From Streptomyces sp. NBC_00708 (GTDB lineage Bacteria > Actinomycetota > Actinomycetes > Streptomycetales > Streptomycetaceae), in contig CP108997.1 in NCBI GenBank assembly GCA_036226585.1, positions 620,001-684,000 on the forward strand: a stretch of 64,000 nt of DNA. The letters run 5' to 3'. Of this stretch, positions 28,122-64,000 are shown piece after piece. The position numbers and the translations under genes were made by a program. Every line of letters begins with the position of its first letter. Position 1 is the stretch's first letter. The notes beneath the pieces were generated by a model that worked only from the letters and a program-made list of their open reading frames with translations, ran no database searches and was not told the origin of the DNA.

Positions 28122-28343
28122 CTAGGGCTCGGCCCCGGGCATCCCGAGCAGTTGCCGTCCCCAGGCCCGTTCGGCCGCGCTGAGCGGGATCTCGGGGCAC
28201 AGCCGCTCGGGGTGGCCCGGGGGCGGCCCCTCGGCGGGCTCGCTCACCTGCTCGTCGGTGGGCGGGATGTAGACCCAGATCCGACCGAAGGCGATCAATG
28301 AAGAGGCGAAGGACCGCAGATACCGGGCGAGGACGAGGCGCAT
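28122..28343 (-). CDS. Small DUF6059-like protein
   Basis: 73 aa. Begins MRLVLARYLRSFASSLIAFG, a basic amphipathic/hydrophobic helix, then RIWVYIPP and a Pro-rich acidic stretch ending in PERLCPEIPLSAAERAWGRQ. This layout matches, from memory, a small Streptomyces family (DUF6059) often found next to SARP regulators in secondary-metabolite clusters. Divergent from the SARP gene here and convergent with the reductase (4-nt gap). Function unknown; it marks the probable left edge of the cluster. Confidence 0.65.
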   Translation of the reverse strand: MRLVLARYLRSFASSLIAFGRIWVYIPPTDEQVSEPAEGPPPGHPERLCPEIPLSAAERAWGRQLLGMPGAEP

Positions 28344-28516
28344 GTCCCCAGCTTTCCCGCGTAGGCCAAAGCCGCACCAAAGCCGGGCGCCCCCAACGCG
28401 TTTCGGCCAATCGGCATACGTACGCAGTTTCCCCGATGTGCGGACAGGCGCACTCCCTCGAAAGTGACTGGAGCCGGATACACGAAAATCCGTTCCCCCT
28501 ATCGCACGAGGTATCG

Positions 28517-29290
28517 ATGCGCTACGAACTGCTCGGCCCCCTCCGCGTCTCCCACGACGGCCGGGGCTGCACCCTCAGCGCCCCCAAGATGGAAATGACC
28601 CTGGCCACCCTGCTCGTCGGGGCCGGACGCGTGACCACCAAGGATCAGATCATCGAGGAGCTGTGGGGGTCGGGGCCGCCCCGGCGCGCCTCGGCCGCCG
28701 TCCATGTCTATCTCTCGCAGCTGCGCAAGTTCCTCACGGCCACCGGCGGCGACGGCGGCAGCGCCATCGTCACCAAGCCGTCGGGCTATCTGATGCGGCT
28801 CGACGGAGCGGGCTACGACGTCGACGACTTCCGGACAGCCGTGCGGGAGGGCCGTGGCCTCCAGCAGGCCGGACGGTACGAGGCCGCGCTCGACGCCTTC
28901 GGGCGGGCGCTGTCCCTGGTGCGCGGCCCGGTGCTCGACGGCACGCCCGAGGGCCCGGTGCTGACCCGCTTCGCCACCTGGGTCGAGGAGGAACGGCTCG
29001 CCTGCCTGGAGCTGTCCGTCGAGGCCAGTACGGCGCTCGGCCGGCACCGGGAGGTCATCGGTCTGCTGAACACCCTCACCGCCGAATATCCGCTGCGGGA
29101 GTCCTTCTACCGCCAGCTGATGCTGGTCCTGTACCGCTCGGAGCGGCAGGCGGAGGCGTTGCAGGTCTACCGCTCGGCGCAGCGCGTCCTGAGGTCCGAA
29201 CTGGGTCTGGAGCCCTGCCGGTCGCTGCGCCGGCTGCACCAGGCGATCCTCACGTCGGACCGGCTCCTCGACCTGCCGATGGCGAGCTGA
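28517..29290 (+). CDS. SARP family pathway-specific activator (AbyI/AbyR type)
   Basis: 257 aa, the length of a minimal SARP. An N-terminal OmpR-like winged helix (MRYELLGPLRVSHDG, KMEMTLATLLVGAGRVTTKD, AVHVYLSQLRKFL) spans 1-95, followed by a bacterial transcriptional activation domain (YDVDDFRTAVREGRGLQQAG through LEPCRSLRRLHQAIL). SARPs bind direct heptamer repeats near -35 boxes and activate antibiotic genes. The thioesterase gene starts 1 nt after its stop, so the SARP heads the operon SARP-TE-MPE-PPTase. Confidence 0.92.
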   Translation: MRYELLGPLRVSHDGRGCTLSAPKMEMTLATLLVGAGRVTTKDQIIEELWGSGPPRRASAAVHVYLSQLRKFLTATGGDGGSAIVTKPSGYLMRLDGAGYDVDDFRTAVREGRGLQQAGRYEAALDAFGRALSLVRGPVLDGTPEGPVLTRFATWVEEERLACLELSVEASTALGRHREVIGLLNTLTAEYPLRESFYRQLMLVLYRSERQAEALQVYRSAQRVLRSELGLEPCRSLRRLHQAILTSDRLLDLPMAS

Positions 29291-29291
29291 C

Positions 29292-30068
29292 GTGGCCACC
29301 GGACACCGGGACGCCTGGCTGCGCCGCTATCACCCCACGGACGCCCGCGCCGAGCTGGTCTGCTTCCCGCACGCGGGCGGCGCGGCGGGGTTCTGGCGTC
29401 CGCTGTCCGCCGCCGTACATCCCTCGCTGGACGTGCGGGCCGTGCAGTACCCGGGCCGGCAGGACCGGTACCGCGAACCGCCCGTCGCCGATCTGCACCG
29501 GCTCGCCGACCTGATCGCCGAGGCGCTGGAGACCGGGCCGCCGCCGGCCGGACCGCGCGTCTTCCTCGGGCACAGCATGGGCGCCTCGCTCGCGCACGAG
29601 GTGGCACTGAGGCTGTCCGGGACGGGCGGCCACGCCCCGGTGGCGCTGATCGTGTCCGGCCGGCGGGCGCCCTCGCGCCTCGGGGCCGGTGAACGGCTGG
29701 ACACCGACGAGGCGTTGATCGCGCGGGTCCGGTCGCTCGGCGGCACGGACCCCGCCGTGCTGGCCGATCCCGATCTGCTCGACCTGGTCCTGCCGGCGCT
29801 GCGCGGCGACTACGCCGCCCTCGCCGGGTACGAGCCCAGCGGCGGACTGCTGGCGTGCCCGGTCGTCGCCCTCACCGGCGACGACGACCCGGAGGCGCCG
29901 CCGGAGGACGTACGGGCGTGGTCCGAGCACACCGCGGGCCCGTTCGAGCTGCGGGTCCTGACGGGCGGCCACTTCTGCCTGAACGAACACCTGCCGGCCG
30001 TCGCGGAACTCGCCGTCGCGCTGTCCGCCGCCGTCCCCGCGCACGGGCGGGCGGTGGGGCCGTCGTGA
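29292..30068 (+). CDS. Type II thioesterase (editing; AbyT type)
   Basis: 258 aa, alpha/beta hydrolase of the RifR/GrsT family. Nucleophile GHSMGA (Ser95), Asp in TGDDDPEAP (~199) and His227 (GGHFCL) complete the triad, and CFPHAGGAAGFWRPL is the typical oxyanion region. It removes aberrant acyl groups from PKS carrier proteins. Starts with GTG 1 nt after the SARP stop and overlaps the next gene by 4 nt (GTGA), so translation is coupled. Confidence 0.93.
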   Translation: MATGHRDAWLRRYHPTDARAELVCFPHAGGAAGFWRPLSAAVHPSLDVRAVQYPGRQDRYREPPVADLHRLADLIAEALETGPPPAGPRVFLGHSMGASLAHEVALRLSGTGGHAPVALIVSGRRAPSRLGAGERLDTDEALIARVRSLGGTDPAVLADPDLLDLVLPALRGDYAALAGYEPSGGLLACPVVALTGDDDPEAPPEDVRAWSEHTAGPFELRVLTGGHFCLNEHLPAVAELAVALSAAVPAHGRAVGPS

Positions 30069-30928
30069 GCGGGGCCGGGAGCCTGCTGGCCATCAGCGAT
30101 CTGCATGTGGCCTTCGACGACAACCGGACGGTGCTGGAGGGACTGCGCCCGGACCATCCGGACGACTGGCTGCTGGTGGCCGGGGACGTCGGTGAGATCG
30201 CCGGCGATGTCGCCCGCGCGCTGGAGCTGCTGAGCCGGCGCTTCGCCAAGGTGGTGTGGGTGCCGGGCAACCACGAGCTGTGGACGCACCGCCAGGACCC
30301 GCTGCCGCTGCGCGGCCGGAGCAGGTACGAACACCTCGTGCGGATCTGCCGCGACCTGGGGGTGGTGACGCCCGAGGACCCGTACCCGGTGTGGCGGGGC
30401 CCGGGAGGCCCGGTGACGGTGGCGCCGCTGTTCGTCCTGTACGACTACACCTTCCGGCCGCCGGGGACCCGGAGCCGCGACGAGGCGCTGGAACGGGCCC
30501 GCGCGAGCGGCGTCGTCGGGACCGACGAGGCACTGCTGCACCCCGATCCGTACCCCTCGATCGACGCCTGGTGCCGGGCACGCCTGGCGCTGACGGAACG
30601 CCGGCTCGCGGCGCTGGCGCCCGGGACCGAAACGGTGCTGGTCAACCACTTCCCGCTGGTCCGCGAGCCCACCCGGATCCTGCGCCACCCGGAGTTCGCC
30701 CTGTGGTGCGGCACCGAGGCCACGGCGGACTGGCACCAGCGGTTCCACGCCCGCGCCGTGGTGTACGGGCATCTGCACATCCCGCGCACCACCTGGCACG
30801 ACGGGGTCCGCTTCGAGGAGGTGTCGGTGGGCTACCCACGGGAGTGGCGCCGCCGGGACGGAGGGCCGGGCCGGCCCCGCGTCGTCCTGCCCGGCGCGGC
30901 ACCGGACGGACCGGAGGTCCGGCGGTGA
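30065..30928 (+). CDS. Metallophosphoesterase
   Basis: 287 aa, calcineurin-like phosphoesterase. Metal-binding motifs in order: DLH (Asp12, His14), GDVGE, GNHELW, a later NHFPLV and C-terminal GHLHIP. It should be a cytoplasmic dinuclear-metal hydrolase of a phosphomonoester or diester. It is locked between thioesterase and phosphopantetheinyl transferase genes by GTGA overlaps on both sides, so it belongs to the biosynthetic operon, but its substrate is unknown. Confidence 0.85.
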   Translation: MSGAGSLLAISDLHVAFDDNRTVLEGLRPDHPDDWLLVAGDVGEIAGDVARALELLSRRFAKVVWVPGNHELWTHRQDPLPLRGRSRYEHLVRICRDLGVVTPEDPYPVWRGPGGPVTVAPLFVLYDYTFRPPGTRSRDEALERARASGVVGTDEALLHPDPYPSIDAWCRARLALTERRLAALAPGTETVLVNHFPLVREPTRILRHPEFALWCGTEATADWHQRFHARAVVYGHLHIPRTTWHDGVRFEEVSVGYPREWRRRDGGPGRPRVVLPGAAPDGPEVRR

Positions 30929-31635
30929 TCGGCGCGCTGCTGCCCGTGGGGGCGGTGGGGGCGGAGGTGTACGGCGATCCGGCCGGGGCGCGGCTGCATC
31001 CGGCGGAGGAGGCCGCGATGGCGCACGCGGTGGCCTCGCGCCGCCGGGAGTTCACCTCCGTACGTCATTGCGCGCGCCTCGCACTCGCGCAACTCGGCAT
31101 CGGATACGCGCCGTTGGTACCGGGGCGGCTGGGTGCTCCGCGCTGGCCGGACGGGGTGGCCGGGAGCATGACGCACTGCACGGGCTACCGGGCAGCCGCC
31201 GTGGCGCGGACCGGGGTGCTGGCCTCCGTCGGCATCGACGCCGAACCGGACCGCCCGCTGAAGCCGGGCATGCTGGAGGCCGTCGCCCTCCCGGCCGAGC
31301 GGGCGCGGCTGGCGGAACTGGCGTCCGGCCGGCCCGGGGTGGCGTGGGACCGGCTGCTGTTCAGCGCCAAGGAAGCGGTGTACAAGGCGTGGTTCCCGCT
31401 GACCGGGCGGCTGCTCGACTTCCCGGAGGCGGAGATCCGCATCGACGCCGGGGGCACCTTCCGGGCGGTGCTGCTGGTGCCCGGCCCCGTGGTCGGGGGC
31501 CGGGCGGTCCGGGTCCTGCACGGCCGGTGGGCGGCCGGCCGGGGGCTGCTGGTCACCGCGGCCGGGGTGCCTCAGCCGGCCAGGGCCATCAGCCGGACGA
31601 GTGCGGCGCGCGAGTTCACGCCCAGTTTGCTGTAG
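30925..31635 (+). CDS. 4'-phosphopantetheinyl transferase (Sfp/EntD type)
   Basis: 236 aa. Family motifs: SMTHCTGYRAAAVA, the Mg-binding GIDAEPDRPL and FSAKEAVYKAW. It converts apo carrier proteins to the holo form with CoA, here presumably the PKS ACPs and the stand-alone glyceryl ACP. GTG start overlaps the metallophosphoesterase stop. Its last ~21 codons (31572-31635) lie antisense to the end of the LAL regulator gene. Confidence 0.92.
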   Translation: MIGALLPVGAVGAEVYGDPAGARLHPAEEAAMAHAVASRRREFTSVRHCARLALAQLGIGYAPLVPGRLGAPRWPDGVAGSMTHCTGYRAAAVARTGVLASVGIDAEPDRPLKPGMLEAVALPAERARLAELASGRPGVAWDRLLFSAKEAVYKAWFPLTGRLLDFPEAEIRIDAGGTFRAVLLVPGPVVGGRAVRVLHGRWAAGRGLLVTAAGVPQPARAISRTSAAREFTPSLL

Positions 31636-34313
31636 ATGTGCGTCAGGTGGACGTCCACGGTGCGCGGGCTGACCCGGAGCCGGCCGGCGATGTCCTTCGT
31701 CTTCAGCCCCTCACCGGCGAGTTCGGCGACCTCCCGCTCGCGCAGGGTCAGCTCGCCGAGCCCGCTGTCCTCCCGCCGGTCCGTCATCTGCCCTGCGGCG
31801 CGGGCCAGTTCGCGGGCACGGGCGCCCGCGGGGCTGGCATCGCCGAACAGCAGCCGCGCCTCCTCGTAGCAGGCGGCGGCCTCCGCCGGGAGCTCCCGGC
31901 CCATCAGGGCGTGGCCCCGGGCCAGCAGCGCGTGCCCGCTCTGTTCGACCAGGCCGACGGCGGACGCGGCCTCGGTGGCGCGCTCGGCCCAGACGTCCAG
32001 GCTGTCCGCACCGGCCCCGGTCTGGACGGCCGCGGCGGCGAGCAGTTCGTAGTTGCGGGCCGCGAACACGGCGACGGGCTCGGCCACCCGCCACGCCTCC
32101 CGCTCGGGCAGCAGCAGGGCCAGTGCGGCACCGGGCTCGCCCGAGGCGAGCGCGGCCTCGGCGAGCAGCAGCGCGTTGAGCGGCGTCCGTGGCTCCGGGG
32201 CGGTCCGTTCGGCGGGCGCCGGGGCGGGGCGCGGTGAGGTGCGGCCGAGCTGGGCCCAGGCGGCGGCGCTCACCGCGTCGGACAGCGCGGCATGGTCGCC
32301 GCGGCCCATGACACGGGCGACGGCGGTGCCCTCCCGCACCGCGCCGAGCGCGTCGGCGAGCCGGCCGCTCTGGTAGTGGACGTACCCGAGCGTGTCGAGC
32401 AGCGGCGGCAGCAGGTGCGCGTCGCCCCGGTCACGCGCGGCGGTCAGGGCGCGTTCGGCGTGGCCGTAGGCGGGCCCGTACCAGCCCATGAGCGCCTCGG
32501 CCCAGCTGAGGACCAGCAGGTGGCCCGCCTCCGCGTCGCCCGCGGGCCGGCCGGTGTCCAGCTCGTCCAGGGCGTGGGCGGCGGCGTCGAGCGACATCTC
32601 GGCCGCGCACATGTCGGCGTCGAGCACCGCGCACAGCCCGGCGAGGCTGAGGGCGCCGCCCAGGGTGACGGGGTCGGCGCCGTCCGTGCGGTGCGCGAGG
32701 ACCTCGACGTCGGTGCGGGCGGGGACCTGGCCCGCCAGCACCTTGGCCAGCTGCTGGTGGACCCGCAGCAGCAGGCCCGCACCGGCCGAAGCGGCCTGTG
32801 CGGCGGGGAGTTCGGCGGCCAGCAGCGCCTGCGCCCCCTCGTCGTGCCCGGTCCCGGCGAGCACGGCGGCGAGGAAGGCGGCGGTACGGGCGCGGACGTC
32901 CGGGGTGCGGCCGTCGGGCCCGGCGAGGATGTCCGCGCGCAGCGCCATGACGCCTTCGGCGTCGCCCTCCCCGGCCAGGGCCCGCACCACCTGCTTCCAC
33001 AGCTCGGTGCGGGGGCCTCCGGCGTCGCCGCCGTCGCCGGTCCTGCGCCACAGCCGGAGCGCGGCCGTCAGCCAGTGGGCCGCGTCCGCCGCCCGGCCGG
33101 CCTGGACACAGGTGCGGGCCGCGGCGGCCAGGACCTCGCCGTCCGCCGGGCGGACACCCGATCCCGCGCGTTCGATGTGCGGGGCGATGTCGAGGGCGGG
33201 CAGGCCGAGCCGGGTGAGCCGGTCCCTGGCCCTGCGGTGCGCGGCCGAGCGCCAGCAGGGGTCGGCGTCGGCGTACAGGCAGCCCCTGAGCAGCGGATGG
33301 CGGAAGGCCAGGACGCCGGGGCGGTCCGTGGCGCGGACCAGATCGCGGCGGCGCAGGCCGGAGAGCTCCCGGCAGGCCTCGTCGCGGGTCGTCCCGGCCA
33401 CCTCGGCGACGGCGTCGATGTCGAAGACACTGCCGAGCACCGCCGCCGCGTGCACCACGGTGCGGGCGGCGTCGCCGAGGAGTGCGGTCTCCGCGAGCAG
33501 CCGGGCGCCGAGCGCGCTGGAGGTCCAGAGGTCGAGGGCGTCCCCGGTCTGGGCGCCGGCCTCGGCGAGGGCCTTGAGGTAGAGGGGATTGCCCCCGCTG
33601 CGGGCGTACAGGCTCTTCAGTTCCGGGTGGCCGGGGCCGGGGCCGAGGAGTGCGCCGCACTGCTCCTCGGTCAGGGCCCCGAGGCCGATGGTCTCGACCG
33701 CCCCGAGTTCACCGCCCTGCTGGAGGAGGGCGCGCAGCGGCACGGTGGCCTGTCGGGGCCGGTGGGCGACGACGACCATCAGACCCCGGTCGAGCGGCCA
33801 GCGGATCAGGGTCTCCAGGAGCCCGGCCGAGCCGGGGTCGGCCCAGTGGAAGTCGTCCAGGACGAGCAGGGTGCCGGCCGGTGCGGCGGCGGGCCCGGCC
33901 GCGAGCAGGCGGCGGACCTGGGCGAGGAACGGGGAACGCCAGGTGCCCTGTTCGGCTCCGGGCGGGAGGTCGGTGAGCGCGTCGACGAGCGCGGCGGTGG
34001 CCGAGGTCTCCGCTCCCGGCCGGGCCGCGGTGCTCTGCCAGATGGTGAGGGCCTGTACGAGGGGGTGGAACGGCACCCGGGTCTCGGCCTCGGTGCAGCG
34101 GCCGTGGAGCACGGTCACTCCGTGGGCGCGGGCCTCCTGGGCGAGGGCGGTGAGAAGTCTGGTCTTGCCGGCTCCGGGGTCGCCCGTCAGTTCCACGATC
34201 GCCGGGCGTCCGTCGCGGGCCGCCCGCACGAGGCCGGTGAGCCGCGCCCACTCGGCGGTGCGGACGACGGCTGCGGTGCCGGTGCCCGGTCCGGTGATGG
34301 TGGTGATGCCCAT
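31572..34313 (-). CDS. LAL-type LuxR transcriptional regulator (AbyH type)
   Basis: 913 aa, large ATP-binding LuxR family. Walker A GDPGAGKT at residues 44-51, Walker B LLVLDDFHW, a long TPR-like middle, and a C-terminal LuxR HTH (LTLREREVAELAGEGLKTKD, VSPRTVDVHLTHIYSKLGV). Such proteins activate modular PKS clusters. The ATG at 34313 follows GGAAGGGA; an upstream in-frame ATG at 34373 lacks support. Divergent from the Rhs-type gene with 247 bp between. Confidence 0.93.
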   Translation of the reverse strand: MGITTITGPGTGTAAVVRTAEWARLTGLVRAARDGRPAIVELTGDPGAGKTRLLTALAQEARAHGVTVLHGRCTEAETRVPFHPLVQALTIWQSTAARPGAETSATAALVDALTDLPPGAEQGTWRSPFLAQVRRLLAAGPAAAPAGTLLVLDDFHWADPGSAGLLETLIRWPLDRGLMVVVAHRPRQATVPLRALLQQGGELGAVETIGLGALTEEQCGALLGPGPGHPELKSLYARSGGNPLYLKALAEAGAQTGDALDLWTSSALGARLLAETALLGDAARTVVHAAAVLGSVFDIDAVAEVAGTTRDEACRELSGLRRRDLVRATDRPGVLAFRHPLLRGCLYADADPCWRSAAHRRARDRLTRLGLPALDIAPHIERAGSGVRPADGEVLAAAARTCVQAGRAADAAHWLTAALRLWRRTGDGGDAGGPRTELWKQVVRALAGEGDAEGVMALRADILAGPDGRTPDVRARTAAFLAAVLAGTGHDEGAQALLAAELPAAQAASAGAGLLLRVHQQLAKVLAGQVPARTDVEVLAHRTDGADPVTLGGALSLAGLCAVLDADMCAAEMSLDAAAHALDELDTGRPAGDAEAGHLLVLSWAEALMGWYGPAYGHAERALTAARDRGDAHLLPPLLDTLGYVHYQSGRLADALGAVREGTAVARVMGRGDHAALSDAVSAAAWAQLGRTSPRPAPAPAERTAPEPRTPLNALLLAEAALASGEPGAALALLLPEREAWRVAEPVAVFAARNYELLAAAAVQTGAGADSLDVWAERATEAASAVGLVEQSGHALLARGHALMGRELPAEAAACYEEARLLFGDASPAGARARELARAAGQMTDRREDSGLGELTLREREVAELAGEGLKTKDIAGRLRVSPRTVDVHLTHIYSKLGVNSRAALVRLMALAG

Positions 34314-34560: not shown

Positions 34561-37212
34561 GTGCCCACGCCCCGGGACCTTCCCGCCCATCGCGCCGTGC
34601 GGCGCCTGCCCATCGGAGATCTCTGCGAGCTGCTGGTCGGCCTGCACGAGGGCGAACTGATGGTGCGTCAGCTGGACCTGGTGGTCGCCGGGGGCTCCCG
34701 CCCGCTGCGCCTGGTGCGCGAGTACCGCAGCCATTCCCGGGTGGAGCTGGGGTTCGGTCCCGGCTGGTCGTACACGGCGGGTCCCGGCTTCGAGCCGGAC
34801 ACCGGGGGCGAGCCGGTGACGGTCACCGACGCCCGGGGCCGGGTGGTGTCGCTGCACCGTGACGCCGAGGGCCTGGTGTCGAAGATCGTCGACCCGCTGG
34901 GGGCCGAGGCCGCGTCGTTCGCGTACGACCGTGCCGGCCGGCTGGAGCGGCACACCGGAGCGGACGGGGCGACCACCGCCTTCCTGTGGGACGCGGACGG
35001 CCGGCTGGTGCGCGTGACCGATCCGCTCGGCGACGCCGTGGAGATCTCCTACGACGGCATGTTCGCGGTCTCGGAGCTCGCGTGGACCGGCCCCGGCGGC
35101 CGGGCCCGTACGGCCTTCGACTACGGGACGGACCGCACGGTGGTGACCGGGCCCACGGGCCTGCGCACGGGCTATGTCTTCGACGGGCTGGGCCGTCCGA
35201 CGGCCGTGGAGTACCCGTCGGGCCAGGTGCTCGCCCGTACCCGGGACGCCGGTGGCCGCCGGGTCTCCGTCACCGACACCACCGGCGCGACGCTCACCCG
35301 GACCTATGACGAGCAGGGGCGGCCGGTGTCGCTGCGGCTGCCGACGGGGGCGCTGTCCCGGGTCACGTACACCCCGCTGGAGGGCGGCGGGACGCTCACC
35401 GCGCTGCGCGGTCCGCTGGGCAACGAACTGCTGCTGGAGCAGGACGCGGCGGGCCGCCCGGTCCGCAGCCGCGCGGCCGGCCGGGGCGCGGACGTGGACC
35501 GGCGGAGCTACGACCCGGTCCACGGCGGGCTCACGGAGCTCACCGACGGCAACGGTGCCCGGACCCGTTTCGGCTACGACGAGGCGGGCGACCTCACCTC
35601 CGTCACCCCGCCCGCCCCGCTCGGCCGCACGGTCTTCGGCTACGACGGGCTGTCCCGGATCACGTCGGTGACCAGCGGGGCCGGTGACCGCATCGGCCAC
35701 CGCTACGACCCGGCGGGCCGGCTGACGGAGGTCACCGACGAGAACGCGGGGCGGACGCTGCTCGTGCTGGCGCGCGACGCGCTCGGCCGGGTGGTCCGCA
35801 AGTCCGGACCCGGCTGGTCCTACGCGTTCGACTGGGTCAGGACGGCGCGCGGCGACCGTCCGGCGGCCTCGGTCCGCACCGGCGAGGCGGGCTCCGCGCC
35901 GGAGCGGACCGAGGCGGCGTACGACTCCGAGGGCGCGCTGACCTCGTTCACCACCCCGGGCGGCACCACCCGCTACGGCCTGGACGGCGCGGGCCGCACC
36001 GAGTCCGTCACCACCCCGGCCGGCCGTACCGCGCGCTTCGTCCGCGATGCCGCGGGCCGCCCGGTACGGGTCGAACTGGGCGCGGCCGTACAGGAGATCC
36101 GGTACGACGCGTCCGGCCGCAGGACCGCCCTGACGGTGCGCGGGCCGGGCGGCGAGGAACTGCTGTCGGCGGAGTACGGGTACAGCTCGGGCGGCGGAGC
36201 GGACAGCGATCTGCTGCGGTGGGCGGTGACCGACGGGGAGTTCACCGGCTACGCGTACGACGGGCTCGGGCGCCTCGTGCGGGCGGGCGACACCACGTTC
36301 GCGTACGACGGCGCCCACCATCTGCGCCGGCTGGGGACCACGGAGTTCACGCTCAACGAGGCGGGCCAGGTCGCGCGGTTCGGCGACACCCTGTTCGCGT
36401 ACGACGGGGCGGGCAACTTCACCGAGGAGACGAATCCGACCGGCTCGTTCCGCTACAGCGCCACCCACCAGACGCTGACCGGGGTCTTCGGTGGCGTCCA
36501 GGTCGTGGACGTGAGCTACGACGGCCTCGGCCAGGAGACGCCGCGCCGCATCACCGAGACCACCGTGGACGGGCGCACCGTCACCCATGTGCTGACCCAC
36601 TCCGCGCTCGGCATCGTGCGCACCGACGACGACGGGGTGGTGACCGACTATGTGCGCACCCCCGACGGCACCCTGCTCGCCGTGCTCACCGCCGCCGGCC
36701 GCCACTACTGGGCCGTGACCGACCAGCAGGGTTCCGTCCTCGCGCTGATCGACGAGGAGGGCGCGCTCGCCGCCCGCTACCGCTACACCGCGCACGGCGC
36801 GGTCACGGCGTCGGGCGACGCGGCGGCGGCGAACCCCTTCCGCTACCGGGGCGCGTACCAGCTGCTGCGCAGCGCGCACCTCCTGGACCACCACCTCTAC
36901 AACGGGTTCTGGGGGCGTTTCACGCAGCCGGACCCGACGGGCGCCCAGTACGCCCCGTACACCTTCTCCGACAACGACCCGGTGAACAGCGGGACATGGA
37001 CGCGGCACGGCTTCTGGTCGGTGCTCGCCCGCCCGCAGGAGCCCGCCGCGGAGGTCTTCTTCCCGTCGGCGCACTCCCCGGACGCGGCCGCCGCCGCGAC
37101 GGCCGCGCTCACCGGTCCCGGCGCGCATCTCGCGGCGCCTCCCCTGATCGCCCGGACGTCACCGTCCCGGGCCGTAACCCCTTCCTATCGAGAGGAATCG
37201 TCAGATGGCTGA
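34561..37212 (+). CDS. Rhs/YD-repeat protein without toxin domain, in the biosynthetic cluster
   Basis: 883 aa. An N-terminal DUF6531-like segment (LVREYRSHSRVELGFGPGWS) leads into ~25 YD-type repeats (FAYDRAGRLERHTG, FGYDEAGDLTSVTP, HRYDPAGRLTEVTDE and others). An Rhs core end follows (YRYTAHGAV, LYNGFWGRFTQPDPTG) and a ~60-residue Pro/Ala-rich tail. No signal peptide, no PAAR/VgrG neighbour and no recognisable C-terminal toxin, unlike polymorphic toxins. GTG start with GAGGAG 8 nt upstream. Its 3' end overlaps the Diels-Alderase gene by 8 nt, so the two are co-transcribed and probably coupled. Role in the pathway unknown; a shell-like or scaffold protein is one guess. Confidence 0.85.
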   Translation: MPTPRDLPAHRAVRRLPIGDLCELLVGLHEGELMVRQLDLVVAGGSRPLRLVREYRSHSRVELGFGPGWSYTAGPGFEPDTGGEPVTVTDARGRVVSLHRDAEGLVSKIVDPLGAEAASFAYDRAGRLERHTGADGATTAFLWDADGRLVRVTDPLGDAVEISYDGMFAVSELAWTGPGGRARTAFDYGTDRTVVTGPTGLRTGYVFDGLGRPTAVEYPSGQVLARTRDAGGRRVSVTDTTGATLTRTYDEQGRPVSLRLPTGALSRVTYTPLEGGGTLTALRGPLGNELLLEQDAAGRPVRSRAAGRGADVDRRSYDPVHGGLTELTDGNGARTRFGYDEAGDLTSVTPPAPLGRTVFGYDGLSRITSVTSGAGDRIGHRYDPAGRLTEVTDENAGRTLLVLARDALGRVVRKSGPGWSYAFDWVRTARGDRPAASVRTGEAGSAPERTEAAYDSEGALTSFTTPGGTTRYGLDGAGRTESVTTPAGRTARFVRDAAGRPVRVELGAAVQEIRYDASGRRTALTVRGPGGEELLSAEYGYSSGGGADSDLLRWAVTDGEFTGYAYDGLGRLVRAGDTTFAYDGAHHLRRLGTTEFTLNEAGQVARFGDTLFAYDGAGNFTEETNPTGSFRYSATHQTLTGVFGGVQVVDVSYDGLGQETPRRITETTVDGRTVTHVLTHSALGIVRTDDDGVVTDYVRTPDGTLLAVLTAAGRHYWAVTDQQGSVLALIDEEGALAARYRYTAHGAVTASGDAAAANPFRYRGAYQLLRSAHLLDHHLYNGFWGRFTQPDPTGAQYAPYTFSDNDPVNSGTWTRHGFWSVLARPQEPAAEVFFPSAHSPDAAAAATAALTGPGAHLAAPPLIARTSPSRAVTPSYREESSDG

Positions 37213-37609
37213 CCAGATCGTGCTGCGCGTCCCCAGGGAAGTCGTGGTCAAGGTGGTCGACGACGTCGAGGTGGCCGATCCGAGCGTGGGCCAGACCGGC
37301 ACGTTCGACGACGAACTGTTCGACGAGGACGGCAAGTTGATCGGCACCTCGCACGGTTCGTTCCGCATCGAGTACGTGCGGCCGGGCGACGGCGGGCTGC
37401 TGACCTACTACACCGAGGACATCACGCTCGACGACGGCACCATCCACGCCGAGGGGTGGGCGGACTTCAACGACGTGCGCACCAGCGAGTGGGTGCACTA
37501 TCCGGCGACCGGCACCGGTGGCCGTTACGAGGGGCTGCGCGGCTTCCGCACCTGGCGGATGACCGGGGTCCGGGCCTCCGCCGAGGCGCGCATCCTGCTG
37601 TCCGACTGA
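37205..37609 (+). CDS. abyU: AbyU-type spirotetronate cyclase (Diels-Alderase)
   Basis: 134 aa, single-domain beta-barrel of allene-oxide-cyclase-like fold. It matches abyssomicin AbyU closely in my memory of that protein, e.g. VVVKVVDDVEVADP, FRIEYVRPGDGGLLTYY, HAEGWADFNDVRTSEWV and RTWRMTGVRASAEARILL. The residues lining the AbyU pocket (Phe41, Tyr76, Phe95, Tyr106, Arg122, Trp124, Met126) correspond here to Phe34, Tyr69, Phe88, Tyr99, Arg115, Trp117 and Met119, all unchanged. It should catalyse the intramolecular [4+2] between the exocyclic methylene of the tetronate and the chain-end diene to form the spiro centre. AGAGGA precedes the ATG. Confidence 0.9.
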   Translation: MADQIVLRVPREVVVKVVDDVEVADPSVGQTGTFDDELFDEDGKLIGTSHGSFRIEYVRPGDGGLLTYYTEDITLDDGTIHAEGWADFNDVRTSEWVHYPATGTGGRYEGLRGFRTWRMTGVRASAEARILLSD

Positions 37610-37641: not shown

Positions 37642-38673
37642 ATGACGGGTCGGGACGTGTACATACGGTCGGCGGCCTCCGCGCTTCCCGGCCCGCCGCT
37701 GGACAACGCCACGCTGGCACAGCGGTTCGGCATGGACGCGCTGTGGCAGCAGTGGGTGGATGTCTTCATCGGCACCGCCTCGCGCCACCTGGCGCTGGAC
37801 CTGGACTCCGGGAAGCTCACCGTCTCGCTGGCGGACCTGGCCGAGGAGGCCGGGCGCGCGGCACTGGAGCGGGCGGGCCTGGGCCCGGACGGGGTGGACG
37901 CGGTGGTGCTGGGCACGGCGACACCGGACCGCCTGATGCCGGCGACGGTCAACATCGTCGCGGACCGGCTGGGCATCGACGGCGTACGGAGCTTCCAGCT
38001 CCAGTCGGGGTGCTCCGGCGCGGTCCAGGCGCTCGACCTCGCCCAGCAGCTGCTGCGCGCCGGGAGCGCCCGTACGGTGCTGGTGCTCGGCGGTGATGTG
38101 ATCGCCAGGTTCTACGACCTGGACGCCGATCTGCGCGCCACCGCCCCGGCCGAGCTGGTGAACTACGTCCTGTTCGGGGACGCGGCGGGCGCCGCCGTGC
38201 TGTCCACCGAGCCGGGCCCCGGGTCCGCCTCGGTGCGGGCGCTGTTCAGCCGGCTGGTGGGGCTCGGCCGGGAGCCGGGCGCGGTCCTGGAATGGTTCGG
38301 CCCCGCCGACCGGGACAGCGACCGGCCGGCCGCGACCGAGGACTACAAGGCGATCGAGCAGCACGTCCCGGTGATGGCCGGCGAGGTGCTGGACGAGCTG
38401 CTGGAGGGCCTGGGCTGGGCGCGCGAGGACGTGGACCTGCTGCTGCCCCCGCAGCTGTCGGGCCGGATGACCCGGCTGATCACCGAGGGGCTGGGGCTGC
38501 CGGACGCCGAGGCGGTCTCCTGCGTGGACGACGCCGGCAACTGCGGCAACGCCATCGTCTTCCTCCAGCTGGAGCGGGCGCTCGCGCGGCTGGCGGGCGG
38601 GCGGCGCGCGGTGGGCATCTCCATCGAGTCCAGCAAGTGGCTCAAGGCGGGCTTCGCCCTGGAAGGGAACTGA
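37642..38673 (+). CDS. abyA1: KASIII-like tetronate-forming synthase (AbyA1 type)
   Basis: 343 aa, FabH-fold. The acylated cysteine is Cys124 in LQSGCSGAVQAL and the late Asn is in DDAGNCGNA. The place of the FabH motif H-Q-A-N is taken by PPQLSG (269-274), so the classical decarboxylation histidine is missing. This fits a non-decarboxylative role in joining the polyketide thioester and glyceryl-ACP into the tetronate. GGAAGGG precedes the ATG, and the FkbH-like gene starts 4 nt after its stop. Confidence 0.9.
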   Translation: MTGRDVYIRSAASALPGPPLDNATLAQRFGMDALWQQWVDVFIGTASRHLALDLDSGKLTVSLADLAEEAGRAALERAGLGPDGVDAVVLGTATPDRLMPATVNIVADRLGIDGVRSFQLQSGCSGAVQALDLAQQLLRAGSARTVLVLGGDVIARFYDLDADLRATAPAELVNYVLFGDAAGAAVLSTEPGPGSASVRALFSRLVGLGREPGAVLEWFGPADRDSDRPAATEDYKAIEQHVPVMAGEVLDELLEGLGWAREDVDLLLPPQLSGRMTRLITEGLGLPDAEAVSCVDDAGNCGNAIVFLQLERALARLAGGRRAVGISIESSKWLKAGFALEGN

Positions 38674-40543: not shown

Positions 40544-40767
40544 AGACCGTCGATGACTTCGTCACGCTGCTGCGCGACGAACTCGCCCTGCCCGTCACCG
40601 CCGAGGACCTGGGGCGCGGGCTGGACACCGTGGAGTCCTGGGACTCGGTGCATCTGCTGGCGCTGTGCACGGCGCTGGAGCGGGAGACCGGCCGTTCGCT
40701 GCCGCTGGCGGACGTCCTGGAGGCGACGAGCCTGCGGGACGTGTACCTGCTGGCGGTGGCACCGTGA
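40540..40767 (+). CDS. abyA3: Stand-alone acyl carrier protein for the glyceryl unit (AbyA3 type)
   Basis: 75 aa. The phosphopantetheine site is Ser36 in VESWDSVHLL, a W-D-S variant common in glyceryl ACPs rather than the D-S-L of fatty-acid ACPs. It carries glycerate between the FkbH-like enzyme and the KASIII-like synthase. Starts GTG at 40540 inside the FkbH stop (GTGA) and itself ends in a GTGA overlap with the next gene. Confidence 0.92.
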   Translation: MKTVDDFVTLLRDELALPVTAEDLGRGLDTVESWDSVHLLALCTALERETGRSLPLADVLEATSLRDVYLLAVAP

Positions 40768-43807: not shown

Positions 43808-43841
43808 GCGCCCATGCTACCGTGCCAGCCACCTGTTTTAA

Positions 43842-43866: not shown

Positions 43867-43886
43867 AGTGGTTCAAAGGAGTTGCC

Positions 43887-51720: not shown

Positions 51721-52923
51721 ATGCCAGGCTCACCCGTCCCATCCACCGCTTCCCCGTCCGCCCCGGACCGGCCGCGGGCCGCCCGGCTGCCGTCCCTCAC
51801 CGGGATGCGCTTCCTGGCGGCCCTGCTGGTCTTCGCCTTCCACACCACGTTCCAGACCCGGTTCATCGGCGGCGGCTTCGGCGACACACTGAGCGACTGT
51901 TTCGCCAACGCCGGGTTCTACGGGGTGACGTTCTTCTTCGTGCTCAGCGGCTTCGTCCTGACCTGGTCGGCGCGGCCCGCGGAGGGCGCGCCCCGGGTCT
52001 GGCGGCGCAGACTGGTGAAGATCTTCCCCAACCACCTGGTCACGTTCGCCGTCGCCGCCGTCCTGATGGCGGCGACGTCCGAGGTGTTCACCACGAAGGG
52101 CGTCCTGGCCAACCTCTTCCTGGTCCAGGCGTGGATACCGGAGATCCAGGTCCCCAACACGATGAACGCGGTCAGCTGGTCGCTGTCGTGCGAGCTGTTC
52201 TTCTACCTCGCCTTCCCGTTCCTGCTGCCGGTCCTGGAGCGGCTGACGGCCCGCCGGCTGTGGACGCTCGCCGGGGCGCTCGCCGCCCTCACCGTCCTGG
52301 TGCCGGCCGTCAGCAGCTGGACGGTGGCCGGAACCCCGCTGCCGTTCATCGCCGACGGCTCGCTGTCCTTCGAGCAGATCTGGTCCGTCTACTTCTTCCC
52401 GCCGGTGCGGGCGATCGAGTTCGTGCTCGGCATGATCGCCGCGCGGCTGGTGCTGACCGGCGCCCTGCCCCGTATCGGACTGCTGCCCGCCGCCGCGATC
52501 GCCGTCGGCGGGTACGTGCTCAACTCCTCGGTGCCGTACCTGTACGGGGTGGCCGGCACCGGCGCCCTGTGGCTGGCCCCGCTGGTCGTCGCCGCCGCGC
52601 AGGCCGACGTCCGGGAGACCGCCTCGCCGTTCCGGGGGCGGGTGCTGGTGCGGCTCGGGGAGCTGTCGTTCGCGTTCTACATGGTGCACGGGCTGGTGGT
52701 GACGTACGGCCACAAGTGGCTCGTGGCCGACGCGAACCCGTCCGGCGCCGCGGCGGCCGCGCTGCTGCTCGCCGCCCTGCTGACCGCCCTGGCCCTGGCC
52801 CTGGCTCTGTACAGCTGGGTCGAGGCGCCCGCCGTACGGCGGTTCAGTGCTCCTCGCGCGAAGAAGCCGGCGGGCCCCGCGCCCGCCGTCGTCCCACTCA
52901 CTGTCCTGGAGGCCGGGGAATGA
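51721..52923 (+). CDS. Acyltransferase-3 family membrane O-acyltransferase
   Basis: 400 aa with ~10 hydrophobic helices. AT3 features: SLTGMRFLAALLVFAFHTTF (catalytic-region His), FFFVLSGFVLTW, RRLVKIFPNHLV and LSFAFYMVHGLVV. AT3 enzymes move acyl groups (often acetyl or longer) onto sugar or other hydroxyls at the membrane. GGAGG is 9 nt before the ATG, and the P450 gene follows by ATGA overlap, so it is part of the tailoring operon. Substrate in this pathway unknown. Confidence 0.88.
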   Translation: MPGSPVPSTASPSAPDRPRAARLPSLTGMRFLAALLVFAFHTTFQTRFIGGGFGDTLSDCFANAGFYGVTFFFVLSGFVLTWSARPAEGAPRVWRRRLVKIFPNHLVTFAVAAVLMAATSEVFTTKGVLANLFLVQAWIPEIQVPNTMNAVSWSLSCELFFYLAFPFLLPVLERLTARRLWTLAGALAALTVLVPAVSSWTVAGTPLPFIADGSLSFEQIWSVYFFPPVRAIEFVLGMIAARLVLTGALPRIGLLPAAAIAVGGYVLNSSVPYLYGVAGTGALWLAPLVVAAAQADVRETASPFRGRVLVRLGELSFAFYMVHGLVVTYGHKWLVADANPSGAAAAALLLAALLTALALALALYSWVEAPAVRRFSAPRAKKPAGPAPAVVPLTVLEAGE

Positions 52924-54143
52924 CCGAGACCAGCACCGCAGCACCCGCCGACGCACGCGAACTGCCCGCCTACCCGCAGGCACGCGGCTGCCCCTACCAG
53001 CCGCCCGCCGGCTACGACACGTACCGGGAGCAGGGCCCCGTCTCCCTGGTGGAGCTGTACAACGGCCGCCGGGTGTGGGCGGTGAGCGGGCACGCGGAGG
53101 CGCGGCAGGTCCTGCTCGACGCGGCCACGTACTCCTCCGACCGGGTCCATCCGCACTACCCGGCCACCGCCCCGCGTTTCGAGTCGGCGCGCAAGGTGCG
53201 CAACTTCATCGGCATGGACCCGCCGGAGCACACCGTGCAGCGGCGCATGCTGCTCACCAACTTCACCGTCCGCAAGGTGCAGGCGCTGCGGCCCGGCATC
53301 CAGCGGCTGGTCGACGAGCTGATCGACGCGATCGAGGCGAAGGGCCCGGTCGCCGACCTCGTCCCGGACTTCGCCCTGCCGGTCCCGTCCGTCGTCATCT
53401 GCGAACTGCTCGGCGTGCCGTACACCGATCACGCCTTCTTCGAGCAGCAGTCGCGGCGGGTGGTGACCGGGACGACGAGCCTGGAGGACAGCGCCGACGC
53501 GTTCGCCCAGCTCGCCTCGTATCTCGACGGGCTGATCCGGCGCAAGGAGCAGGAGCCCGGCGACGGGCTGCTGGACACCCTGATCGCGGAACAGCTGTCC
53601 ACGGGCGCGCTGACCCGCCGCGACCTGGTCGACATCGCGCTGCTGCTCCTGGTGGCCGGGCACGAGACCACCGCGAGCGCCATCGCGCTCGGTGTGCTGA
53701 CCCTGCTGGAGAACCCGGAGCAGCTGGCGGCCCTGCGCGCCGACGAGACGCTGCTGCCGGGCGCGGTCGAGGAGCTGCTGCGGTACATGGCGATCGCCGA
53801 CGGGGTCGCCCGGTTCGCGACGGTCGACACGGAACTGGGCGGGCACCAGGTGAAGGCGGGTGACGGGGTGATCGTCGTCATCTCCTCGGCCAACCGGGAC
53901 GACGAGGCGTTCCCGGCCGCCGACGCCTTCGACGTCGGGCGCGGCGCACGCCACCACATCTCCTTCGGGCACGGCGTCCATCAGTGCATCGGCCAGAACC
54001 TGGCCAGGGCCGAGATGGAGATCGCGCTGTCCACACTCTTCCGCCGGCTGCCGGGGCTGCGCCTCGCCGAACCCTCGGGGCAGCTGCCGGTCAAGGAACC
54101 GGGCGGGGTCCAGGGCATCTGGCGCCTGCCCGTCACCTGGTGA
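52920..54143 (+). CDS. Cytochrome P450 (CYP105/107-like; tailoring, AbyV/AbyX type)
   Basis: 407 aa. I-helix AGHETT at 246-251, heme-ligand loop FGHGVHQCIGQNLAR with Cys356, and the ExxR motif in VEELLRYM. Soluble bacterial P450 fed by the ferredoxin encoded next. In abyssomicin pathways P450s oxidise the spiro-tetronate or its precursor, e.g. epoxidation; I cannot assign the site. ATGA overlap with the acyltransferase gene. Confidence 0.92.
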   Translation: MTETSTAAPADARELPAYPQARGCPYQPPAGYDTYREQGPVSLVELYNGRRVWAVSGHAEARQVLLDAATYSSDRVHPHYPATAPRFESARKVRNFIGMDPPEHTVQRRMLLTNFTVRKVQALRPGIQRLVDELIDAIEAKGPVADLVPDFALPVPSVVICELLGVPYTDHAFFEQQSRRVVTGTTSLEDSADAFAQLASYLDGLIRRKEQEPGDGLLDTLIAEQLSTGALTRRDLVDIALLLLVAGHETTASAIALGVLTLLENPEQLAALRADETLLPGAVEELLRYMAIADGVARFATVDTELGGHQVKAGDGVIVVISSANRDDEAFPAADAFDVGRGARHHISFGHGVHQCIGQNLARAEMEIALSTLFRRLPGLRLAEPSGQLPVKEPGGVQGIWRLPVTW

Positions 54144-54186: not shown

Positions 54187-54381
54187 ATGCACATCAAGGC
54201 CGATACACAGCGGTGTCTGGGCGCGGGTCAGTGCGTCCTGTCCGCGCCCGACCGCTTCGACCAGTCCGACGAGGGCACGGTCCTGGTCCTGGAGGACCGG
54301 GTGGACGGTCCGGCCGAGGAGGCGAGGCTGCGGGACACCGTGGCGCTCTGCCCCTCGCAGGCCATCGCTCTGGAGGCCTGA
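54187..54381 (+). CDS. Three-cysteine ferredoxin, probably [3Fe-4S] (AbyW type)
   Basis: 64 aa. Cysteines at 10, 16 and 55 (RCLGAGQC ... ALCPSQAI) with Ala/Gly at the position of the fourth ligand, as in [3Fe-4S] ferredoxins of Streptomyces P450 systems. Electron donor to the adjacent P450. Begins 43 nt after it and 2 nt before the esterase gene. Confidence 0.92.
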   Translation: MHIKADTQRCLGAGQCVLSAPDRFDQSDEGTVLVLEDRVDGPAEEARLRDTVALCPSQAIALEA

Positions 54382-54383: not shown

Positions 54384-55301
54384 ATGCCGGTGACGGGACG
54401 GCTGGCCGACGCGGTCGCGGACCACCGGGCGGGCCCCCGGCCGCTGGGTGAACTCCCGGCGGTGCCGGGGGCCGAGGTGTCGGAGCGGTGGATTCCGGGC
54501 GCACCCGGGGCGCCCCGGGTGCGGGTACGGATCTACCGCCCGGCCGGGGCGGGGGCGACGCTGCCCGCCGTGGTGTGGATCCACGGCGGGGGCTTCGTCC
54601 TCGGCAATGTGGACTCCGTCCACCACTCGGCCGCCCAGGCGGCGGTGTTCGCCTCGGCGGTGGTCGTGGCGGTGTCCTACCGGCTGGCGCCGGAAGACCC
54701 GTTCCCGGCGGGGCTCGACGACTGCTGGGCCGCGCTGGAGTGGACCGCCGGGAACGCGGCGGAGATCGGCGCGGACCCCGGCCGGCTGGCGGTCGCGGGG
54801 GCCAGTTCCGGGGGCTGCCTGGCCGCCGGTCTGGCCCTGCTCGCCCGGGACCGGGGCGGCCCGGCCCTCGTCTTCCAGCACCTGAGCACCCCGGTGCTCG
54901 ACGACCGGCTGGAGACGGACTCGATGACGGCGTTCACGGACACCCCCATCTGGAACCGCCGTCTGGCACAGGAGAGCTGGGAGCTGTACCTGGGCGGCCG
55001 GGCCGAACTCCCCGCGCACGCCGCACCGGCGCGCGCCGCGGACCTGGGCGGGCTGCCCCCGGCGTACCTCTCGACGGCGGGGCTCGATCCGCTGCGCGAC
55101 GAGGGCCTGCTGTACGGGCTCCGCCTGGCGCGGGCCGGGGTGCCGGTGGAGGTGCACAACTACCCCGGCGCGTACCACGCGTTCGGCGGCTGGGCGGACA
55201 GCCCGGACGGGCCGGACGCCGACGAGCCGCACCGCGTCGCGCTGGAGCACCTGACCGCGCTGCGGCGCGGGCTGCACGCGGGCGGGCCGGGGGCGATTTA
55301 G
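54384..55301 (+). CDS. Alpha/beta hydrolase, hormone-sensitive-lipase (family IV esterase) type
   Basis: 305 aa. Oxyanion motif HGGG from His67 (WIHGGGFVLG), nucleophile Ser142 in GASSGG, acid Asp in STAGLDPLRDEG and base His in YHAFGG. It would hydrolyse an acyl ester in the cytoplasm. Its position directly after P450-ferredoxin, downstream of an O-acyltransferase, suggests it trims or removes an acyl group on the polyketide; this is inference. Confidence 0.9.
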   Translation: MPVTGRLADAVADHRAGPRPLGELPAVPGAEVSERWIPGAPGAPRVRVRIYRPAGAGATLPAVVWIHGGGFVLGNVDSVHHSAAQAAVFASAVVVAVSYRLAPEDPFPAGLDDCWAALEWTAGNAAEIGADPGRLAVAGASSGGCLAAGLALLARDRGGPALVFQHLSTPVLDDRLETDSMTAFTDTPIWNRRLAQESWELYLGGRAELPAHAAPARAADLGGLPPAYLSTAGLDPLRDEGLLYGLRLARAGVPVEVHNYPGAYHAFGGWADSPDGPDADEPHRVALEHLTALRRGLHAGGPGAI

Positions 55302-61300: not shown

Positions 61301-64000
61301 CCCGGCAGGCGACTGGACCCGCCACGCGACGGGCACGCTGGCCCCGTCGACCGCCGCGCCCGCCGCCCTCCCGGACACCACCTGGCCCCCGGCGCGCGCC
61401 GACGCGCTCGACGTGGAGGCGCTGTACGCACGGCTCGACCGGCTGGGGTACGCGTACGGGCCCGCGTTCCGTGCCGTACAAGCCGCGTGGAGCGACGGCG
61501 ACGACCTCTTCGCGGACATCGCGCTTCCGGACGAACTGCGGGAGCAGGCTTCGGAGTTCCCGGTGCACCCGGCCCTTCTGGACGCGGCCCTGCATCCACT
61601 GGTCGGCCGGGAGGAGGCACGGGAGGACGGCCGTCTGCCCGTGCCGTTCGCCTGGTCGGGCGTCGAGCTCTTCGCGACCGGCGCCACCGCCCTGCGCGCC
61701 CACTGGTCGTCGGGCCGGCTCACGGTCACCGATCCGGCCGGCAGCCCCGTCCTGTCCGCCGAATCCCTCACCCTGCTTCCGGTCGACGCCGCCGCACTGG
61801 GCACACCGGCCGGCCGGGCGCCCACTCCCTACCGCGTCGACTGGACGCCCGTCCCGCACCACCCCTCCCCCCGCACACACACCGCGCACATCGACGCGCT
61901 CGCGGACCTCGCCGCCGACGCACCCGTCCCGGACGTCGTCGCCGTGTCCGTGCCACAGGGCCGCGAGGCCGCCGCGCACACGCTGGCGCTGGTACGGGAG
62001 TGGCTGGACGAGGACCGCTTCGGCAACGCCCGGCTGCTGCTCCTGACGCGTGGCGCACAGGCCGTGGCGGCCGGCGATTCCGTACCCGATCCCTGGTCGG
62101 CCTCCGCCTGGGGGCTCGTACGGTCGGCACAGTCGGAGCACCCGGGGCGGTTCGTGCTCGTGGATGTCGACGAGGGCACACCGGACCTGGACGTGCTGGC
62201 GGATGCGTCCCGCGACGAGCCTCAACTCGCCCTGCGCGGTGGCACTCTGTCCGCCCCCAGGGTCACCCGTGGCGGCGCCACCGACATCCCGGAGCCGCGC
62301 GACTACGGCCACCGCACCGTCCTGATCACCGGTGGGACCGGTGGGCTCGGCCGGCTGGTCGCCCGGCATCTCGTGGCACGACACGGGGCGCGGCATCTGC
62401 TGCTGGTGAGCCGCAGCGGCGAACAGGCCCGAGGTGCCGACGAGTTGGCCCGCGAGCTGGCCCGATCCGGGGCCGAGGTGCGGTTCGCGGCCGTGGACGC
62501 GTCCTCGCGCGAGGAGCTGGCGGGGGCGCTGGACGCGATCCCGGCCGACCACCCCCTGGGCGCCGTCTTCCACCTGGCCGGTGCACTCGACGACGTCACG
62601 GTCGAGGGGCTGACGCCGGACCGGCTGGAAGCCGTGCTCCGGACGAAGGCCGATTCGGCCGCCCATCTGCACGAGCTGACGGCCGGCGGCGAGCTGAGCG
62701 ACTTCGTACTGTTCTCGTCGGTCGTCGGGGTCACCGGCAACGCCGGGCAGGCCAACTACGCCGCAGCCAATGCCTACCTCGACTCCCTCGCCCACCACCG
62801 CCACGCCCACGGTCTGCCCGCCACCTCGCTCGCCTGGGGACTCTGGGACCAGCCGGAGGGAATGAGCGCAACCCTGGGTGAGACCGAACTGGCCCGCTGG
62901 GCGCGTTCCGGGCTCGGCCCGCTGTCCGTCGCCGACGGGCTCGTCCTGCTCGACGCGGCCCTCACGGGCGAGGACCCGGCGCCGGTCCTCGTACGCTTCG
63001 ACACACCCGCGCTGCGGGCGCGGGCGGAACACGGCGCGCTGCCCTCCGTGCTGCGCGGGCTGGTACGCGCTCCGCGTCCCCGCGCCTCGGCCGCGACGGC
63101 CGGGAACTCCGCGGCCGGAACATGGGCCCAGCACACCTCCGCCCTCCCGGAGGAGGAACGGCAGTCCGCCGTCACGGACCTGGTGCGGGCGACGGTGGCC
63201 ACCGTGCTCGGCCACACCGGCCCGGCGGCGCTCGACGACTCGCGCGCCTTCCGGGACCTGGGCTTCGACTCCCTCGCCGGTGTCGACCTGCGCAACCGGC
63301 TGGCCACCGTCACCGGGCTGCGGATCTCCACGACGGCCGTCTTCGACCACCCCACACCCCGGTCGTTGGCAGCCCACCTGCTGACCCTCCTGCCGGGCGG
63401 CACCGCCCACTCCCCGCTCCCCGCCCCCGTCACCGGCGCGCGGCCCGTCGGCCAGGACGACCCGGTCGTCATCGTCGGCATGGCCTGCCGCTACCCGGGC
63501 GGCGTGGCGTCGCCCGACGACCTGTGGGACCTCGTCGCGTCGGGGCGGGACGCCATCGGCGGCTTCCCCACCGACCGGGGCTGGGACCTGGCGGGCCTCT
63601 ACGATCCGGACCCGGACCACCTCGGCACCTCGTATGCCCGTGACGGCGGATTCCTTTACGGGGCAGGGGAGTTCGACGCCGAGTTCTTCGGGATGAGCCC
63701 CCGCGAGGCCCTTGCGGCCGACCCGCAGCAGCGGCTTCTCCTGGAGACGGCCTGGGAGACGTTCGAGCGCGCCGGCATCGACCCGGGCAGCGTGCGCGGG
63801 AGCCGGACGGGTGTCTTCGCCGGGGTCATGTACAACGACTACGGATCACGGCTCGTGAAGGCGCCCCGCGATCTGGAGGGCTATCTGCTCACCGGCAACA
63901 CATCGAGCGTGATCTCGGGGCGGGTGGCGTACACCTTCGGTCTGGAAGGCCCGGCGGTGACCGTCGACACGGCCTGCTCGTCCTCCCTGGTCGCTCTGCA
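55386..64000 (+). CDS. Type I modular polyketide synthase, 5' part (loading module, module 1, start of module 2; AbyB1 type)
   Basis: 2871 residues in the window; runs off the right edge. Loading module: KS (7-~430) in which the active-site Cys is Gln165 ([12 protein letters not shown]) while His300 and His340 remain, so KSQ; AT with Ser618 (GHSIGE) and HAFH 715-718, malonyl type; ACP Ser931. Module 1: KS Cys1164, His1299, His1339; AT Ser1621 with HAFH 1718-1721 (malonyl); DH His1902 and Asp2066; KR NADPH loop GGTGGLG 2316-2322, LDD 2401-2403 (B type) and Tyr2458; ACP Ser2629. Module 2 KS begins ~2694 with Cys2864. No ER, no methyltransferase. Expected product of module 1: an E-crotonyl thioester. 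ATG start chosen where the KS begins. Confidence 0.95.

Follow-up and report, generated by a model that had tools for sequence, protein, structure and literature searches.

We identified, in the 64,000-nucleotide stretch of DNA analysed here (the window, which covers bases 620001–684000 of a contig of 7.3 Mb; the genome totals 7.65 Mb in three contigs), a gene cluster that is very probably a complete abyssomicin-type spirotetronate pathway of type I, the AbyU lineage. Abyssomicins are folate biosynthesis inhibitors that attract interest for use against Gram-positive pathogens. The cluster spans 61.3 kb, from 28517 to 89827 in window coordinates, and its final 25.8 kb lie past the window edge in the same genome. 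Genes were called from codon usage with a custom script over 128 kb of the contig and annotated by Pfam (Table 1). The identification draws on the observed gene content, module logic, co-occurrence and synteny; the abyssomicin product is predicted from the genes, and the cluster could be silent. An initial annotation had proposed an abyssomicin-like spirotetronate, and the full polyketide synthase (PKS) plan, together with a cyclase that shares 76% identity over 97% with M. maris AbyU (5DYV), lends support to this proposal.

Table 1. Features of the cluster in window coordinates; the window ends at 64000.
Feature	Position	Strand	Basis or remark
SARP activator (AbyI/AbyR type)	28517..29290	+	Pfam BTAD + Trans_reg_C; left cluster edge
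Type II thioesterase (AbyT/AbmT-like)	29292..30068	+	PF00975
Metallophosphoesterase (AbmL-like)	30065..30928	+	PF00149
LAL-type LuxR regulator (AbyH)	31572..34313	-	AAA_16 + GerE
AbyK, YD/RHS-repeat protein, 883 aa	34561..37212	+	PF05593, PF20148
AbyU-type spirotetronate cyclase (Diels-Alderase)	37205..37609	+	AOC-like Pfam match, E 5.5e-45
AbyA1, KASIII-like tetronate-forming enzyme	37642..38673	+	PF08545/PF08541
AbyA2, FkbH-like glyceryl-S-ACP synthase	38678..40543	+	A2-position matches in relatives' regions
AbyA3, discrete ACP	40540..40767	+	PF00550
AbyA4, E2-like acyltransferase	40764..41534	+	PF00198
AbyA5, alpha/beta-hydrolase fold eliminase	41531..42616	+	PF06500
Flavin reductase (AbyZ/AbmZ-like)	42661..43113	+	PF01613
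TetR repressor (AbyC)	43103..43807	-	PF00440
MFS exporter (AbyD)	43887..45359	+	PF07690 (run from 43959)
Luciferase-like monooxygenase (AbyE)	45447..46490	+	PF00296
AbyF1–F4: substrate-binding protein, two permeases, fused two-domain ATPase	46550..51655	+	PF00496, PF00528 x2, PF00005
AT3-family membrane O-acyltransferase, 400 aa	51721..52923	+	PF01757 (run from 51805)
AbyV-type P450, predicted epoxidase	52920..54143	+	Best solved structure 7QAN (AbyV)
Ferredoxin adjoining AbyV	54187..54381	+	PF13370
HSL-type esterase	54384..55301	+	PF07859
AbyB1 PKS, 6109 aa	55533..73862	+	KSQ loading + modules 1–3
AbyB2 PKS, 3850 aa	73891–85443 (past window)		Modules 4, 5
AbyB3 PKS, 1019 aa	85477–88536 (past window)		Module 6
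AbyX-type P450 past PKS	88613–89827	-	Grouping in P450 tree; past window

The gene types that the initial annotation had listed are present with Pfam matches, save the FkbH-like AbyA2, which had none at E ≤ 0.001 and was placed by matches in the A2 position in 5 of 6 relatives' regions. Its four-component ABC transporter, P450 and ferredoxin were all recovered; the second P450 past the window was not on its list, nor were the YD/RHS protein, the metallophosphoesterase, the AT3 acyltransferase and the alpha/beta-hydrolase that we call an esterase. The cluster that it began at 28122 stands, with its left edge moved to the SARP gene: the DUF6059 gene at 28122–28343 has a match, among six relatives' regions, only in the close Streptomyces relative, the genes left of SARP match the near relative alone in this comparison, and SARP itself is collinear in four relatives. 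To the right of the cluster (L011:1904-6350) lie genes for a SpoIIE-type phosphatase, an MT0933-like small protein and an FG-GAP repeat protein.

The position of AbyH is kept in four relatives. The metallophosphoesterase is variable: in the S. fragilis region it sits elsewhere, and the regions of Herbidospora and Acrocarpospora lack a match. The flavin reductase is not essential to the plan, because it has no match in 4 of the 6 relatives' regions (Herbidospora, Acrocarpospora, Frankia EI5c and M. wenchangensis). The AbyD reading frame opens with GTG, preceded by AAAGGAG. Allowing up to 3 mismatches, we found no copy of the published aby AbyC operator in the window; the abyC–abyD intergenic stretch (43808–43886) carries a degenerate form of this 16-base operator, and related 16-base sites, closer than the window's form, occur in the same intergenic stretch of Herbidospora and Acrocarpospora.

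Proposed chain assembly, tetronate formation and ring closure

The full PKS consists of a KSQ loading module and six extension modules, and the KSQ motif that the initial annotation had claimed was found in the loading module. Modules 1–3 on AbyB1 are each KS-AT-DH-KR-ACP, and AbyB3 is one KS-AT-ACP module. A PKS at odds with about five acetates and two propionates had been named beforehand as an observation that would count against an abyssomicin; across the whole PKS the AT motifs run HAFH, HAFH, HAFH, HAFH, YASH, YASH, HAFH, that is, five acetates and two propionates, with the two YASH ATs in modules 4 and 5. In the KR of module 4, both the glycine-rich motif for NADPH and the Tyr are lost (NYAAAN becomes DTAAVG), and the DH of this module is degenerate, with HPALLTAAVQ replacing the intact motif. 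This non-reducing module precedes module 5, which has DH, ER and KR and is fully reducing. The AT count over the full PKS and the degeneracy of module 4 therefore favour an abyssomicin chain. Judged by its motifs, the plan is the published atrop-abyssomicin C plan: the aby PKS shares this module plan as well as the Asp-to-Thr change in the DH, although its AbyB2-DH1 has additionally lost the first His that is retained here, and the published table places KSQ at the second module (PMC3625739). In four relatives, the KSQ loading module (detected with a looser pattern in Herbidospora and Acrocarpospora), the HAFH x4 of AbyB1, the YASH x2 of AbyB2 and the HAFH of AbyB3 recur in 4/4. Some of the remaining DH and KR motifs, in active modules, escaped our patterns; by these patterns, AbyB2 shows a single intact KR motif rather than two in 4/4 relatives, and the module 4 DH motif takes the degenerate form in 3/4, S. 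fragilis matching neither form. A second large modular PKS region, with eight PS-DH matches, occurs in the same genome (contig C1, 3593035–3638562).

Each catalytic step of the proposed pathway is assigned by homology. KSQ would decarboxylate malonyl to an acetyl starter, modules 1–3 would build a triene from three malonates by KR-DH processing, methylmalonates would enter at modules 4 and 5, with a ketone left by module 4 and full reduction by module 5, and module 6 would add a malonate. The A1–A5 tetronate cassette is complete; it is expected to transfer the chain to a glyceryl unit, freeing it in the form of an exo-methylene tetronate, after which AbyU would close the spiro ring by [4+2] cycloaddition.

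The cyclase scores 221 bits against AbyU, 63–64 against AbmU and at most 120 against the other solved cyclases listed. Its Glu12, Tyr69, Arg115 and Met119 correspond, with a shift of seven residues, to Glu19, Tyr76, Arg122 and Met126, which are named for AbyU in PMC11268479; across 14 aligned sequences Glu12, Tyr69 and Arg115 never vary and Met119 is almost invariant. The cyclase is 100% identical to those of Streptomyces sp. 2131.1 and col6, and we take the genome to be a Streptomyces on this ground and because hit coordinates in AbyU-bearing members of its genus coincide with those in S. flaveolus, S. regalis and S. poriferorum. The cyclase lineage predicts type I (15R) ring closure, as discussed in PMC11318650.

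These data bear on two other product classes. A different tetronate with an AbyU-like cyclase, of the chlorothricin, quartromicin, tetronomycin or tetramate type, might be considered, since cyclase relatives occur in such clusters (PMC7176366) and distant U homologues lie near KASIII genes (L015, L017, L018). However, the PKS has only seven modules, on the aby plan, the cyclase score to AbyU stands well above those to the other solved cyclases listed, and the gene set matches the published aby list and the type 1b order (PMC3625739, PMC7176366), which makes such a product highly improbable. A type II (abm/abs-like, 15S) abyssomicin is extremely improbable. The metallophosphoesterase and the ferredoxin do resemble abmL and abmG by type, but abm takes up propionate at its first extension step and acetate at its fully reducing module (PMC5819245), whereas the two YASH ATs of this PKS sit, like those of aby, in modules 4 and 5, and the cyclase scores only about 63 bits to AbmU.

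AbyK, the RHS/YD protein beside the cyclase

The abyK gene overlaps abyU by 8 bases, and a profile of AbyK picks up Rhs proteins and teneurins of solved structure. We surveyed the pair in 34 loci, 27 of them named. In all 22 named loci with a cyclase of at least 76% identity, an AbyK match lies directly upstream of U; in 21 of these, the distance from its stop to the start of the cyclase ranges between –18 and +104 bases, and the remaining one is a shared open frame. No AbyK match was found in the five distant named loci (cyclase 34–51%), of which L042 holds only 472 upstream bases. Of the seven remaining loci, the window's own and L014 have AbyK, four short distant ones were without a match, and one had no cyclase match. 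The pair is intact in Micromonospora, though A1–A5 run the opposite way. One AbyK homologue (L027:7299-9998) has 3 stop codons within the matched stretch and was excluded from the alignment. Chance placement of an RHS gene beside the cyclase was ruled out, given that AbyK is known in aby and adjoins U in 22/22 loci.

U is mostly a separate gene adjoining the YD-repeat core, and it is part of a single polypeptide in two genomes. A search of full-length proteins with the fused cyclase part found these two fused K-U chains (P0023, P0024), both from Streptomyces: a 1025 aa protein of S. iconiensis, the source of the query, and a 1024 aa protein of Streptomyces sp. NPDC048057 (89% over the cyclase part). 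Free cyclase may also arise in S. iconiensis, because the cyclase part of its fusion retains its own ribosome-binding-site-like stretch and ATG.

The constant pairing and the natural fusions point to a role for AbyK shared with the cyclase. More speculatively, and we consider this quite unlikely as it stands, AbyK would act as a cytosolic RHS/YD shell for holding, folding or delivering AbyU, a toxin-shell architecture used as chaperone or micro-compartment, with fused K-U as its single-chain form. DPxGL is the usual Rhs core-terminal autocleavage motif. It is absent from the core end in all 21 aligned AbyK rows, the core in the window terminating DNDPVNSGTWTR, and the AbyK of aby is shorter (579 aa; PMC3625739). 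A strict need for AbyK is opposed by two reports: deletion of abyK lowered production to about 30%, a plasmid-borne copy restored it, and the function was called elusive (PMC3625739), and the AbyU authors describe AbyU as a standalone enzyme (PMC11318650). Our searches of open-access literature found no paper linking AbyK with AbyU. The pairing sharpens the question of the role of AbyK, and a role shared with the cyclase is directly testable.

P450s, acyltransferase and esterase

The P450 at 52920 scores 499.7 bits against AbyV (7QAN), and a ferredoxin directly follows V in 5 of 6 relatives' regions; the ferredoxin is likely the redox partner of AbyV. The AbyV study used spinach partners, since aby had no identified native ferredoxin, and here the P450 and ferredoxin stand side by side within a complete contiguous cluster. 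AbyV and the ferredoxin would epoxidise the cyclohexene, so that the tetronate oxygen could then close the ether bridge to give an atrop-abyssomicin C type skeleton.

The definition of type 1b includes an extra abyV copy downstream of the PKS (PMC7176366). We do not favour the downstream P450 as an abyV duplicate: it scores 386.7 bits to AbyV and best (464.1) to P450-SU1, and in a tree of 14 P450s it groups with an M. wenchangensis P450 (66% identity, 100/100) that stands between LAL and SARP genes, the place of abyX in the aby table. Because of the tree and the scores, the supposed extra copy of abyV looks here like a relocated abyX, as judged through the M. wenchangensis gene.

The AT3 and esterase genes flank the AbyV–ferredoxin pair. 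The start of AT3 was moved to 51721, and R-x10-H is present. The esterase has HGGG and GASSG motifs and candidate Asp and His residues; we weighed whether this hydrolase, at 54384, might be the missing epoxide hydrolase and set the idea aside because both motifs fit a Ser esterase. No AT3-type gene appears in the aby and abm gene tables consulted, and an acyltransferase may already be listed in the type 1b tables of PMC7176366. Published AT3-only proteins include CarE and MdmB, which acylate macrolides, and others that modify chromomycin (PMC9558356). The AT3 protein here probably O-acylates a hydroxyl, for instance one left by epoxide opening, the acceptor being our guess, and the esterase would reverse or edit this acylation.

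We searched 27 cyclase-bearing genomes whole for both genes. AT3 is on the cyclase's contig in 18 of them (61–98% identity, 13.1–14.9 kb downstream). In Frankia AiPa1 the cyclase's contig carries a 45% relative, differently arranged; in Streptomyces or43 (92%) and Frankia AiPs1 (56%) AT3 is on a separate contig, the cyclase contig being short, and two Micromonospora have only 40–44% matches, on other contigs. There was no match at E ≤ 1e-20 in Frankia EI5c, Parafrankia and two Actinomadura (4/27). Sixteen of the 27 genomes have the esterase on the contig of the cyclase (68–95%; in two pieces in G048), with a 59% relative in Frankia AiPa1. In Frankia EI5c, V and ferredoxin adjoin and both AT3 and esterase are absent; S. 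iconiensis has AT3 and no esterase match beside V. The rearranged cluster of Frankia AiPa1 (L101/L102) has a 51% cyclase, V, ferredoxin, F1–F4 and A1–A3 matches, and an HSL esterase adjoining AT3. A second search covered 392 genomes of the window's genus (cyclase at E ≤ 1e-30, AT3 at E ≤ 1e-100, scoring the best ≤ 10 and ≤ 4 first-look candidates per genome). The cyclase was found in 6, the window's own included, and AT3 in 8, namely the same six at 72–100% and two cyclase-less genomes at 55%.

Both genes could be passengers with a role in the cell envelope instead of tailoring enzymes, which we regard as possible but unlikely. AT3 proteins are best known for surface sugar modification (PMC9558356), the two 55% homologues lie outside cluster context (stretches of 12.9 and 40 kb had no cluster genes beyond two weak matches), and S. 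iconiensis does without the esterase match. Against this, AT3 stands between F4 and V in 4/4 collinear relatives and in S. iconiensis, an AT3 gene adjoins an HSL gene in the rearranged Frankia cluster, and at ≥ 72% identity AT3 occurs in 6/6 genomes of the genus with AbyU and 0/386 without, a count weakened because the clusters share ancestry. Altered acyl tailoring, which the initial annotation had raised as a possibility, thus gains support from a pair that appears to go with this cluster lineage. Gene content alone would suggest O-acylated abyssomicins, and the cluster carries genes that predict such members of the family. In the sections of the abyssomicin reviews consulted, we found no natural O-acyl abyssomicin; one review names "acetyl abyssomicin C", with its origin unstated there.

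Comparison with known abyssomicin clusters

The abm cluster of Streptomyces koyangensis SCSIO 5802 (neoabyssomicins; PMC5819245) shares the tetronate cassette, MFS, ABC, SARP, LAL, TE II, metallophosphoesterase and V with ferredoxin. It differs in the order of AT specificities, in gene order and in its type II cyclase, and the AbmJ, AbmK, AbmM and AbmN types and a second LLM monooxygenase are absent from the genes annotated here.

The aby cluster of M. (Verrucosispora) maris AB-18-032 (atrop-abyssomicin C) was compared through the gene table of PMC3625739 and the M. wenchangensis region. It shares the module plan, AT specificities and tetronate cassette, as well as AbyU, AbyK, AbyH, SARP, AbyC, AbyD, AbyE, AbyF1–F4, AbyV, AbyT and the AbyX-type P450. 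In contrast to aby as tabulated, everything here except the AbyX-type P450 lies upstream of the PKS, K-U runs in the same direction as A1–A5, a ferredoxin stands where aby has the abyW alcohol dehydrogenase, AT3 and the HSL esterase are added, and a single SARP gene is among those annotated.

The initial annotation had called for a comparison of gene order with known clusters, and the order agrees with type 1b as published (Iglesias et al., 2020; PMC7176366), in which the conserved blocks all lie upstream of the PKS and a P450 lies downstream; the one difference that we noted is that this P450 groups here with the M. wenchangensis gene in the abyX position, not with abyV. Gene order is also collinear in Streptomyces, Herbidospora and Acrocarpospora. 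The fit to type 1b and the collinearity in three genera therefore make this another member of an established cluster type. It is well supported that this is an abyssomicin cluster of the ordinary kind, already foreseen in print as type 1b, and a few of its details merit bench work.
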